Below are positions 1,203 through 52,452 of a stretch of DNA of 64,000 nucleotides, piece by piece. A program made the position numbers and the translations under genes. Where the stretch lies: positions 1,737,001 to 1,801,000 of the forward strand of contig NZ_CP144918.1 of the NCBI RefSeq assembly GCF_036700095.1. Direction: 5' to 3'. The notes beneath the pieces are model-generated. The model did not search any database, had not been told where the DNA came from, and saw only the letters and a list, made by a program, of their open reading frames with translations. The stretch is from Pelagerythrobacter marensis. Lineage in GTDB: Bacteria > Pseudomonadota > Alphaproteobacteria > Sphingomonadales > Sphingomonadaceae. Numbering within the stretch: the first letter of the stretch is position 1; each line of letters starts with the position of its first letter.

Positions 1203-1336
1203 GGCGTCCGGGCTATGCCTCCGCTCCGGGAGCGGCAAGATGGGAAAACTTGGGCGCGCTCAAGGCTTGCCGGCAGTGGGCCGGGCGGGGCGAGATTGGC
1301 AGTGCAATCGCGGCCGTTTTCTGATAGCTTACAGGC

Positions 1337-1738
1337 ATGTCAGCAAAACCCTTTGCCTTTCCGATCAAGGTCGTGCCCGAAGATATCGATTTCATGGGCC
1401 ACGTGAACAACGCCCGCTACCTCAACTGGGTGCAGGATGCCGTGCTCGCGCACTGGCGCAAGCTGGCCCCGGCGGAGGAGGTTTCGGGCAAGGCCTGGGT
1501 CGCGCTCAAGCACGAGATCACCTATCGCAAGCCTGCCTTCCTGGAAGACGACGTGATCGCGCGCACTGTGCTGGAAAGCATCAAGGGCGCGCGTGCGTTC
1601 TATTCCACGGTCATCCACCGGGGGGAGGAAGTGCTGGCCGAAGTCAAATCGAGCTGGTGCTGCATCGACGCCGAGACGCTGCGCCCCGCGCGGATCGGCG
1701 AAGAGGTCGCGCGGTTCTTCTTCCCGCGCGAGCAATAG
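1337..1738 (+). CDS. Acyl-CoA thioesterase, hotdog fold (YbgC/4-HBT family)
   Basis: A 133-residue single hotdog-fold protein. The N-terminus runs VVPEDIDFMGHVNNARYLNW, which is the classic 4-hydroxybenzoyl-CoA thioesterase motif: an acidic residue, then GHVNNxxY. Such enzymes hydrolyse acyl-CoA thioesters in the cytoplasm, but the substrate cannot be read from the sequence. Length is normal for the family. It lies 18 bases upstream of crtZ on the same strand, so the two are probably cotranscribed, although a functional link to carotenoids is not established. Confidence 0.88.
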   Translation: MSAKPFAFPIKVVPEDIDFMGHVNNARYLNWVQDAVLAHWRKLAPAEEVSGKAWVALKHEITYRKPAFLEDDVIARTVLESIKGARAFYSTVIHRGEEVLAEVKSSWCCIDAETLRPARIGEEVARFFFPREQ

Positions 1739-3043: not shown

Positions 3044-3174
3044 CCTGGAGTCGTTTTCAGCAAGGCTGAAGCGGCACCGGCCCGCACCCCCACCCGGCCA
3101 CCCATAGGATACCCTGCCGTTGGGTGGCCGGGTGGGGGTGCGGGCCGGTGCCGTATCAATGAAAACGACTCTAG
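3044..3174. repeat. R1 inverted-repeat element, copy 1 (long form)
   Basis: The ends read CCTGGAGTCGTTTTCA and TGAAAACGACTCTAG, which are near-perfect terminal inverted repeats. Inside is a perfect 32-base inverted repeat (3072-3103 against 3122-3153) around an 18-base loop, so the whole element can fold into a long hairpin. Shorter relatives lie at 15433-15498 and 55946-56007, with fragments at 3942-3975 and 41565-41580. The right end supplies the TAG stop codon of the YqaE-like gene. It carries no coding capacity of its own. Confidence 0.85.
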
Positions 3175-49858: not shown

Positions 49859-50734
49859 TTACTCCGTCGGCAGCAATGCGTCCGCAAAATCGCCTTCGTA
49901 GAGGCCGATCAGTTCGCGATCGTCGTGATCCCAGGGGTGGAAGCCGGGCCTGAAATAGGCGAGCCAGGCGGGAAAGATGCGGCGGACCACCCCGGGGCTG
50001 ACCACGAGATAGCGGAACAGGCCCCAGCGGGCTTTCCAGCCGGTGATCCCGTCCTGGGCGAGCAGGTTCATCGAATCTTCCCAGCGATTCTTGAAAAAGC
50101 GGCCTGTGACGATCAGCATCATCAGACTGCGGACTTTCCATCGCCGCCATTTCGACCAGTCGCGGGTGGCGTGGTTCCAGGTGTCGAAAGCCACGCCCTT
50201 GTGCTCGATTTCCTCGACCGCGTGCCAGCGCCACATATCGCGGACCTCCGCATCGGCCGCCGCAAAATGGCGGGGATTGGCGAGGAATTCGTGCGCCATC
50301 ATCGCCGTATAGTGCTCCAGCGCCATCGTCGCGGCGAGATTGAGGATTTCCGGCCGTCCTTTGGTCAGGGCCAGCATCTCCTCCACCCGCTTGTCGATCG
50401 CCTTGATGTCGTAGCCCGCGTTCTCGGCCAGCTTGTTGAACGCGATATGCTCGCGCGTGTGGTTGATTTCCTGCTTCACAAAGGCGCGGATTTCGGCGTC
50501 GAGTTTGGGGCCGGCGCCTGCGCGATGCGCCTTTACCGCCTCGATGAAGAAGGCTTCCCCGCGGGGGAATGTCGCGGAAAGGGCATTGTGCCAGGCGGTT
50601 CCGAAAGGCTCGCCGGCCCACCAGCGGCGCGGCGTGGTCTCGCGATTGAACCGCTCGTCCCGGACCGTAATCGTCAGGTCGGCGGGCGTCGGTGCGGAAG
50701 AGCGTTCGAGAGAGATTTGGGCAGGGGCGTTCAT
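49859..50734 (-). CDS. Metal-dependent hydrolase (PF10118-type), paralogue B
   Basis: A 291-residue protein of the predicted metal-dependent hydrolase family, probably a ferritin-like diiron fold. Metal-ligand candidates lie in KQEINHTREHIAFN, ALEHYTAMMAHEFL and AVEEIEHKGVAFDTWNHAT, i.e. repeated E..H helices. It is clearly related along its length to the next gene (50914-51822). The start ATG lies 16 bases from the 18-bp palindromic operator at 50750-50794. Enzymatic activity and substrate are unknown. Confidence 0.85.
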   Translation of the reverse strand: MNAPAQISLERSSAPTPADLTITVRDERFNRETTPRRWWAGEPFGTAWHNALSATFPRGEAFFIEAVKAHRAGAGPKLDAEIRAFVKQEINHTREHIAFNKLAENAGYDIKAIDKRVEEMLALTKGRPEILNLAATMALEHYTAMMAHEFLANPRHFAAADAEVRDMWRWHAVEEIEHKGVAFDTWNHATRDWSKWRRWKVRSLMMLIVTGRFFKNRWEDSMNLLAQDGITGWKARWGLFRYLVVSPGVVRRIFPAWLAYFRPGFHPWDHDDRELIGLYEGDFADALLPTE

Positions 50735-50749
50735 GGGAAGCTCGCTAGT

Positions 50750-50794
50750 TATTGACACATGTGTAAGTAATTTCTGCTTACACATGTGTCAATA
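50750..50794. promoter_or_regulatory. 18-bp perfect inverted repeat, candidate TetR operator
   Basis: TATTGACACATGTGTAAG (50750-50767) is perfectly mirrored by CTTACACATGTGTCAATA (50777-50794) around TAATTTCTG. Each arm contains the smaller palindrome ACACATGTGT, so two operator sites are likely. It lies 16 bases upstream of hydrolase B. The likely binder is the TetR-type regulator at 51853-52452. Confidence 0.8.
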
Positions 50795-50811
50795 GTGCGG
50801 ATCCTCGCGCA

Positions 50812-50840
50812 GGCAGGGGGCTCGGGCCGCTGGCGCTTTG
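50812..50840. repeat. R3 fragment
   Basis: CTCGGGCCGCTGGCGCT (50821-50837) is the reverse complement of the R3 right half (AGCGCCAGTGGCCCGAG) with one change. It lies between the operator and hydrolase A. Confidence 0.5.
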
Positions 50841-50913
50841 TCCGATCGTCTGAAGCCCGGCGTTCGTTGGTTCTCGGGAAAGGGCTCGACAGGGGCAAGG
50901 TGGGCGCCCCGCC

Positions 50914-51822
50914 TTACTCCGCCGGCATCACCGCGTCGGCATAGGGGCTGTCGAACTTGCGGATCAGCGCCCGATCGTCCTGCTTCCACGGGTGGAAGCC
51001 GGGCAGCAGGATCTTGGCCCAGTCGAAGAACATCCGCCGCATCATGCCGGGCGCAATCCACAGGTGCCGGAACAGCAGCCACCTGGCGCGCAAGCCGGTG
51101 ATCCCGTCCTGCCGCAGCAGACCCAGCGCATCGCGCACGCGATTGTTGAAATAGCGCCGCGTGATCAGCAAGGCGAGCAAGGCGCGCACGCGATAGCGTT
51201 TCCATGCCGACCATTCGCGTGTGGCATGGAGCCAGACGTCGTAAGTGATGCCCTTGTGCTCGATCTCCTCGATCGAATGCCAGCGCCACATCTCGGCGAT
51301 TTCCGGGTCCACCCCGTCGAGATAGCGCGGATCGGTCAGCAGGCAGTGGCTGATCGCAGCGGCGAAATGTTCGAGCGCGATGGTAATCGCGAGATTGAAT
51401 TCGGCCGGGCGCCCCCTCGTCAGGGCGAGCATCTCCTCGATACCCTTGTCGATGCTCTCGATATCGTAACCGTGACTCTGGGCCAGATTGTTGAATGCGA
51501 CGTGTTCGCGGGCGTGATTCGATTCCTGGCGGGTGAAGGCACGAAGCTCGGCCGCCATGCGGGGCGGAACCTTGTCGTCGTAATACTTCATCACCTGGAT
51601 GAAGAACTTCTCGCCGCGGGGAAGGCTTGCGGAAACCGAGTTGTACCAGGCGGTTGCCACCGGATCGCCCGAATGCCACCACCGTTCCGGCCGGCCGTCG
51701 CGGCAGAACTTGCGGTCGCGAATGCTAAGGGCGTGGTCGTCGGGTGTTGCGCTGCCCGACGTGCGCGGAACCTTGCCGCCGGCGTCGGGGCGTTCTAGGC
51801 CGCTCGCTTGGTCCGCGTTCAT
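50914..51822 (-). CDS. Metal-dependent hydrolase (PF10118-type), paralogue A
   Basis: A 302-residue paralogue of the neighbouring hydrolase. Shared blocks include ESNHAREHVAFNNLAQSHGY, DIESIDKGIEEMLALTRGRP, MWRWHSIEEIEHKGITYDVW and QDGITGLRARWLLFRHLWIA. The His/Glu positions of a diiron site are kept. It starts only 30 bases from the divergent TetR gene, so the promoters must be compact or overlap coding sequence. Substrate unknown; related proteins occur near lipid genes. Confidence 0.85.
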   Translation of the reverse strand: MNADQASGLERPDAGGKVPRTSGSATPDDHALSIRDRKFCRDGRPERWWHSGDPVATAWYNSVSASLPRGEKFFIQVMKYYDDKVPPRMAAELRAFTRQESNHAREHVAFNNLAQSHGYDIESIDKGIEEMLALTRGRPAEFNLAITIALEHFAAAISHCLLTDPRYLDGVDPEIAEMWRWHSIEEIEHKGITYDVWLHATREWSAWKRYRVRALLALLITRRYFNNRVRDALGLLRQDGITGLRARWLLFRHLWIAPGMMRRMFFDWAKILLPGFHPWKQDDRALIRKFDSPYADAVMPAE

Positions 51823-51852
51823 GGACCTGCATTTTATTGTTCAAGGAACCGC

Positions 51853-52452
51853 ATGGCAAGTCGCAAGCGCCTGACCCCCGAAGAAAGCCGCCGGGCCGCG
51901 CTCGAGGCCGCACGGCGGCTCTTGATCGAAACCGGCCCGCAGTCGGTCACGCTCAAGGCCGTTGCGGGGCGGATCGGGCGAACCCACGCAAATCTGCTGC
52001 ATCATTTCGGCTCAGCCGCGGGGCTGCAGAAGGAACTTGCCAAGCATCTTGCGGAAACCGTGTGCGAGAGCATCAAGGACGCGGTCCGCGCCAGTCGTGC
52101 CGGGCTCGGCTCTCCGCGCGAAGTCGTCGACCTCGCTTTCGATGCGTTCGACAAGGAAGGCGCAGGGGCCCTGGCAAGCTGGATGATCCTGACCGGCAAC
52201 GAAGACGCGCTGTCGCCGATCGTGGAAACGATTCATCAGCTGGTCGACGAAATCGCGCCCGAGGAAGCGACCTCACACGGCGATGTGGCGAGAGTTCACG
52301 AGGACACGCTGGCGCTGGTCCTGATGGCGATGGGGGACGCGCTGATCGGCTCCGCCCTGTCTCGTTCGCTGATGCTGCCCGAAACCGCGGCGCGGGACCG
52401 GGCGGAGCGGATGCTGCTCAATTCGATTGCGACCGCGAGTCAGCCGAACTGA
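51853..52452 (+). CDS. TetR/AcrR family transcriptional regulator
   Basis: A 199-residue regulator. The N-terminal HTH is ARRLLIETGPQSVTLKAVAG and RIGRTHANLLHHFGSAAGLQ, typical of TetR. The C-terminal ligand-binding domain is helical (LASWMILTGNEDALSPIVET). It is divergent from the two hydrolases and most likely controls them. The C-terminus overlaps the end of ygfZ by 35 bases (convergent). Confidence 0.9.
   Translation: MASRKRLTPEESRRAALEAARRLLIETGPQSVTLKAVAGRIGRTHANLLHHFGSAAGLQKELAKHLAETVCESIKDAVRASRAGLGSPREVVDLAFDAFDKEGAGALASWMILTGNEDALSPIVETIHQLVDEIAPEEATSHGDVARVHEDTLALVLMAMGDALIGSALSRSLMLPETAARDRAERMLLNSIATASQPN

Follow-up and report, generated by a model that had tools for sequence, protein, structure and literature searches.

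The perfect 18-bp inverted repeat upstream of gene B in the Pelagerythrobacter marensis window (the whole 64,000-nucleotide stretch of DNA analysed here) is best read as two adjacent 22-bp operators, TTAYTKACAYNNRTGTMARTAA, at which TetR_A, a TetR-family protein encoded nearby, would bind as dimers and repress B until released by a ligand; from the comparison of related sequences a probability of about 0.85 is assigned to this interpretation. As judged from its conservation, the operator pair is genuine and of the TetR type, a known kind of element, and the perfection of the palindrome is its least conserved property. No description of the operator sequence, its regulon or its gene set was found in the literature searched. 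The features of the locus, together with one candidate site elsewhere in the window, are compiled in the table.

Table. Features of the B/TetR_A locus and a further candidate operator (positions in the window).
Feature	Position	Strand	Basis	Remark
Gene B	49859..50734	-	domain search, alignment	PF10118, "metal-dependent hydrolase"
Inverted repeat	50750..50794	no strand		18-bp perfect arms, 9-nt spacer
Operator 2	50752..50767	-		B-proximal, 25 bp from operator 1, of which it is an exact inverted copy
Putative -10 of the B promoter	near 50764-50769	-	-10 A frequency	TACTTA, spacer 17, non-consensus
Operator 1	50777..50792	-		B-distal, nearer tetR; minus-strand sequence TTGACACATGTGTAAG
Putative -35 of the B promoter	50787..50792	-	half-site asymmetry	TTGACA, inside operator 1
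Gene A	50914..51822	-	domain search, locus comparison	PF10118 paralogue without operator
TetR-A gap	51823..51852	no strand	PWM scoring	30 bp, no operator
TetR_A gene	51853..52452	+	domain search	regulator of 199 aa with TetR_N domain; proposed operator binder
Candidate operator at thioesterase gene	1328..1343	+	site search	CTTACAGGCATGTCAG, over the start codon of a thioesterase gene (4HBT, YbgC/FadM-like)

The sequence-only reading had described a perfect inverted repeat in AT-richer DNA directly upstream of B, and this description is accurate: the arms (50750-50767 and 50777-50794) are complementary at 18 of 18 positions, G and C make up 14 of the 45 bases, and the element ends 15 bp from the start of B. 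That start was set at 50734 (MNAPAQ), which is conserved in the alignment, whereas the mechanical list of open reading frames places it at 50785, within the repeat. Perfect inverted repeats with arms of at least 18 bp and a spacer of at most 20 were present in none of ten simulated 64-kb first-order Markov windows, and the real window contains two. The other one, at 3072-3153, has GC-rich 33-bp arms and a 16-nt spacer. The genome-wide site search that had been suggested as a check found TTGACACATGTGT, with up to one mismatch allowed, in the 2.91-Mb genome solely at the two arms of this repeat. The pattern YTKACANNNNTGTMAR occurs at nine sites.

The palindrome ACACATGTGT is nested in both arms and had been taken as the functional element, an assignment that comparison did not support. 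Among the seven genomes of the genus that were searched, CACATGTG occurs at the locus in P. marensis only, and none of the six congeners retains the ACACATGTGT core upstream of B, which rules out exact ACACATGTGT as the motif. While the core varies freely, TKACA-N4-TGTMA and its flanks are conserved, and YTKACA-N4-TGTMAR is found twice upstream of B in all seven genomes, with a distance of 24-25 bp between the copies. Alignment of 76 operator loci yields the consensus TTA-TTGACA-YNNR-TGTMAG-TAA, in which positions 8 and 9 are nearly free; the conserved element is thus the 22-bp operator, present in one or two copies. A strong-looking palindrome can therefore mislead, as the conserved signal resides in the half-sites and their spacing and not in a perfect core.

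A second operator accompanies the first in 30 of these 76 loci, at an offset of 24 (8 loci), 25 (21) or 26 (1), and none was found at any other offset when all offsets from 8 to 49 were scored. Pooling gives 117 distinct operator regions, 67 of them dual (55 at 25, 11 at 24 and 1 at 26) and 50 single. A quasi-palindrome of 22 bp has the length expected for one dimer, and its position at tetR/B loci is that of a TetR-family operator. The earlier suggestion of dimer-of-dimers binding may hold, though not in the interleaved form known from QacR. In sites of the QacR type two dimers occupy one site with overlapping half-sites; here two separate 22-bp operators lie 24-26 bp apart, and 50 of the 117 regions hold a single one. 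At a distance of 25 bp, i.e. about 2.4 helical turns, the operators do not overlap.

The distribution of the site was followed in two sets of genomes. From the 117 genomes of the family with a TetR_A orthologue, 104 TetR_A loci were tabulated, one per genome (G015, G017, G027, G030, G054, G061, G076, G095, G098, G119, G121, G128 and G143 are absent from this table; G095 and G128 possess both a PF10118 gene and the site). Of the 70 loci that contain a B-type gene but no A, 64 carry the exact site, as do all 11 with both A and B, while it is missing from the 3 that have A alone and occurs in 1 of the 20 that lack a PF10118 gene. Altogether it was found in 75 of the 81 loci that include a B-type gene vs 1 of 23 without, where in distant loci "B-type" denotes a PF10118 gene scoring higher, sometimes narrowly, with the B than with the A query. 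Three of the six B-type-only loci without the exact site carry it with one mismatch, and at one locus the site is present with no PF10118 gene detected. In the named set of 80 loci, which were found via TetR alignment and have 11 TetR genes in common with the first set, the site was found in 33 of 33 loci with B only, 16 of 16 with A and B, 0 of 8 with A only and 0 of 23 with neither, hence in 49 of 49 with B vs 0 of 31 without; as the loci are related by descent, the counts of both sets represent non-independent events. By the TetR locus, Pelagerythrobacter and Altererythrobacter are nearest among the named genomes. Among the A-only rows, L050 of the first set and L277 of the named set (both G120) as well as L279, also of the named set, have a contig break at most 679 bases from tetR, and in G120 gene B with a dual operator directly upstream lies on a contig separate from tetR. 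The site is thus retained with B in relatives from both genome sets, and the outcome that would have refuted the sequence-only reading, its absence from relatives that keep the genes, did not arise.

The gap between tetR and gene A had been described as 30 bases without the motif. Its length agrees, and the best score of the position weight matrix from tetR -110 to +40 is -22.7, compared with at least 18.8 for the 76 aligned sites. Likewise, the stretch around this gap scored below 0, with no operator, in all 14 loci of the first set that contain A. Since the site accompanies B and is absent from the TetR-A gaps, it would serve B, and the comparison supports the proposal of the sequence-only reading that control of the two paralogues differs. 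In a tree of the PF10118 proteins A and B each form one clade; L144, L165 and L174 look mis-extracted and have very long branches, the placement of gene C is unsure, and only the A/B separation is used here. In loci without A, B and tetR are divergent and the operator lies between them, in many cases across the start codon of tetR, which makes autoregulation of tetR likely there; in arrangements with A, such as that of P. marensis, tetR has no operator close by.

TetR_A itself scores above the cut-off for PF00440 (TetR_N), and its structure model matches TetR folds. EthR2, FasR, Rv0078 and EilR are among the nearest solved folds identified with Foldseek, at 15-21% identity, and one FasR structure entry contains C20-CoA according to its title. 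Across the 149 genomes of the family the dual-site pattern occurs in 19 (control 0), 18 times at the tetR_A locus and once, in G120, just upstream of B. The strict single site TTGACAYNNRTGTMAGTWR occurs in 58 (control 0), each of which belongs to the 117 with a TetR_A orthologue, vs none of the 32 without (Fisher p 1.4e-8, relatedness ignored), a comparison partly confounded by the rarity of the Coq4-like target described below in the latter genomes (3 of 32 with matches, at 35-40% identity), whose PF10118 genes are uncounted. Of these 32 genomes 13 have no match to TetR_A and 19 weak matches only, and their value as a clean negative control is weakened by the Coq4-like target being mostly missing as well. 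That the site tracks B beside TetR_A in two genome sets supports, on comparative grounds, the original assignment of the operator to the neighbouring TetR protein.

Three other explanations have to be weighed. The site could be bound by the paralogue TetR_C or by both TetR proteins, so that the palindrome would be a shared node of cross-talking regulators. TetR_C is encoded elsewhere in the genome, beside a third PF10118 gene, C (TetR_C gene at G000:C1:1076357-1076980); it is 39% identical to TetR_A, both have HANxLHHFGSAA at the recognition helix, and its intergenic region contains TTGACATCAATGTCAA, which is similar to the operator at B. However, among the 149 genomes clear matches to TetR_C were found solely in the genus members G000, G003 and G005 (83-100% identity) and in G061 and G111 (59-60%), whereas the operator at B is retained in dozens of genomes whose sole clear match is TetR_A. 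As the explanation for the conserved site this is unlikely, although from its sequence TetR_C could share the B operator sites in this genus. Even less is to be said for a different dimeric regulator that owns the site and is linked to it by chance, TetR_A being irrelevant. The tie between TetR_A and the site is comparative evidence, and TTGACA also looks like a -35 box; but the site follows the tetR/B junction through changes of gene order, in many genomes extends over the start of tetR and is absent in its strict form from the 32 genomes without a TetR_A orthologue, confounded as that count is. This explanation is considered very unlikely.

An RNA hairpin on the minus strand between A and B, acting as terminator or attenuator, is the least credible of the three and highly improbable. 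The perfect arms do fold to -25.6 kcal/mol in P. marensis, and fully complementary cores occur in 8 of the 67 dual loci vs 1.65 expected. Yet just 1 of the 67 distinct dual loci has arms that are complementary at 18 of 18 positions, core complementarity averages 1.46 vs 1.42 in shuffled pairs, 50 of the 117 regions have a single operator, and the element remains where B and tetR are divergent and gene A is missing. No stem-loop followed by a T-run was found in 50600-51000; together with the lack of conserved arm pairing in relatives this speaks against an intrinsic terminator.

With TetR_A as the preferred binder, the operator is most likely a TetR-family repressor site overlapping the -35 box of B, as indicated by base frequencies across relatives. 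Position 3 of the B-distal half (TTGACA) is G in 114 of 117 regions, and the mirrored position in 48 of 117; the otherwise symmetric operator is asymmetric exactly here, for which a -35 box in the B-distal half is the best explanation. At a spacer of 17, position 2 of the putative -10 is A at a frequency of 0.74 in the 50 single-operator and 0.84 in the 67 dual-operator regions; a consensus sigma-70 promoter for B was not found. Operator 1 would accordingly overlap the -35 and operator 2 cover the putative -10 and the start region. TetR_A dimers on the operators would deny RNA polymerase access and so silence B, and binding of a ligand, which is probably hydrophobic or an acyl-type metabolite, would release TetR_A and turn B on. 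Steric repression is the most likely mode because the operators lie over the putative -35, -10 and start; TetR_A could act as an activator at some promoters. In relatives without A, the operator between the divergent genes probably also autoregulates tetR; in P. marensis, with A positioned between operator and tetR, both A and tetR would escape this operator. TetR_A would act, in addition, at single operators of unlinked genes, foremost the Coq4-like gene.

Nine YTKACANNNNTGTMAR sites are present in the P. marensis genome (control 0). Two of them constitute the pair at 50750-50794, and the other seven are located just upstream of or over the starts of genes for an acyl-CoA ligase, gene C, a TonB receptor, a secreted protein, a small protein, a thioesterase and a Coq4-like protein, some of these genes being related to lipids. 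The site at the thioesterase gene has an equivalent position in G059 (L223). Between gene C and the divergent TetR_C gene (G000:C1:1076357-1077928, L004) lies TTTACATTGACATCAATGTCAA, which can be read as a symmetric site in two overlapping registers 3 bp apart. Family-wide, strict sites away from tetR and B amount to 26 loci, comprising 13 Coq4-like genes, 3 P450, 3 acyl-CoA ligases, 3 TonB receptors, 2 small proteins, 1 thioesterase and 1 unassigned, where the query proteins for this assignment were drawn from some of the same loci. The P450 (Pfam: p450) is presumably CYP153-like. A small uncharacterised protein of the MSVGGTYD type has an operator upstream in three genera (L040, L195 and L228), the L040 copy being without a Pfam hit; beside it in L040 and L195 is what we take to be an M16-type peptidase gene.

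The Coq4-like gene was the most frequent of these targets. In the best 30 Coq4-like loci, chosen independently of the site, an operator was found just upstream in 28 (23 exact, 5 with one mismatch) and none in the remaining two, compared with 0 of 30 for equal stretches inside the genes. Several of the 30 genomes (G064, G125 and G135) have TetR_A without an adjoining PF10118 gene, and a Coq4-like target would explain the persistence of TetR_A there after loss of B. Tandem Coq4-like paralogues, each preceded by a strict operator, occur at G101:C1:422872 and 424532 (L229).

The sequence-only reading had called the product of B a hydrolase, which is the database name of the family, but its conserved residues are suggestive of a di-iron protein of the ferritin-like type. 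All 45 of 45 sequences of A and B share E60, E89xxH92, E140 and E175xxH178, and the AF2 model of B (pLDDT 87.6) is nearly all helical, so that the helical core with E, ExxH, E and ExxH characteristic of ferritin-like di-iron proteins is present in residues and model. Its best structural alignments were to CmlI, AurF, methane monooxygenase and R2 proteins, the top VIA Z being 12.9 (CmlI, rmsd 4.2 over 228 residues), where values of Z below about 13 may be helical-bundle background. Foldseek gave no match at E of at most 0.001, and no convincing solved relative of B was found by sequence. CmlI, AurF and other ferritin-like di-iron oxygenases resemble B in their helical core and E...ExxH...E...ExxH pattern; they differ from it in sharing only 10% identity, and the Z of 12.9 may reflect a mere common helical arrangement. 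On this basis the sequences suggest that A and B are ferritin-like di-iron proteins, "hydrolase" being a doubtful designation and a misleading family name.

The perfect arms themselves are specific to P. marensis. Operator 2 ends with TGTCAA, compared with TGTCAG in all six congeners, and relative to G002, the closest congener by B (93%), there is 1 difference in the 16 positions of operator 1, against 6 in those of operator 2 and 3 in the 9-nt spacer. The excess of perfectly inverted cores mentioned above has a p of 0.0002 and is to be taken as a lead only, several measures having been tried on related loci; direct core identity shows no excess (4 of 67 vs 2.16 expected, p 0.15). Homogenisation of the arms over the full 22 bp is unsupported: the mean inverted match is 15.28 vs 15.27 in shuffled pairs, and four loci have at least 19 matches vs 2.65 expected (p 0.26). 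Template switching between the arms of quasi-palindromes is a known class of mutation, as described in the portions of PMC7202029 and PMC8604942 drawn on here, and the species-specific arms are perhaps an inverted copy made in this manner. A wider proposal is tentative and given somewhat less than even odds. According to it, a dispersed regulon of the Erythrobacteraceae and their kin, apparently not described before, is under the control of TetR_A (PF10118 di-iron protein, Coq4-like protein, acyl-CoA ligase, P450, thioesterase and TonB receptor); its products together take up and oxidise one hydrophobic compound, and template switching at the inverted repeat now and then renders the two copies of the fixed-distance operator pair at B identical, the perfect palindrome being a mutational footprint in a regulatory site.

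In its architecture the B locus is similar to the TetR-TetA system, where the paired palindromic operators tetO1 and tetO2 lie adjacent to each other over the promoter and the regulator gene is next door. The differences concern the operator sequence and the target, the position of gene A, which separates the regulator from the operators in P. marensis, and the existence of unlinked sites. In the part of PMC6921075 drawn on here, the palindromic TetR-TetA operator is stated to overlap the promoters of both tetA and tetR. The same part describes AlkU of Rhodococcus jostii RHA1 as a TetR repressor of an alkane hydroxylase operon, with two conserved inverted repeats proposed as sites, one of them just upstream of the putative -35, and with two protein-DNA complexes observed; AlkX of Dietzia is likewise a TetR repressor of such an operon in the part of PMC8784404 drawn on. 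As described there, both are like the proposed role of TetR_A in repressing an oxygenase operon, AlkU with paired repeats near the -35. In contrast, they are actinobacterial, the repeats GATTTacAAATC and ACAAATcTtcAtATTTGT are unlike the TetR_A operator, and a PF10118 or Coq4-like target was not found in these parts of the two papers.

For PF10118, a family whose accession was found in one paper of the literature searched, the analysis provides an operator together with its likely cognate regulator and a group of genes whose co-regulation can be tested, and the same lead holds for the bacterial Coq4-like gene. The ligand of TetR_A, if identified, would point to the substrate.
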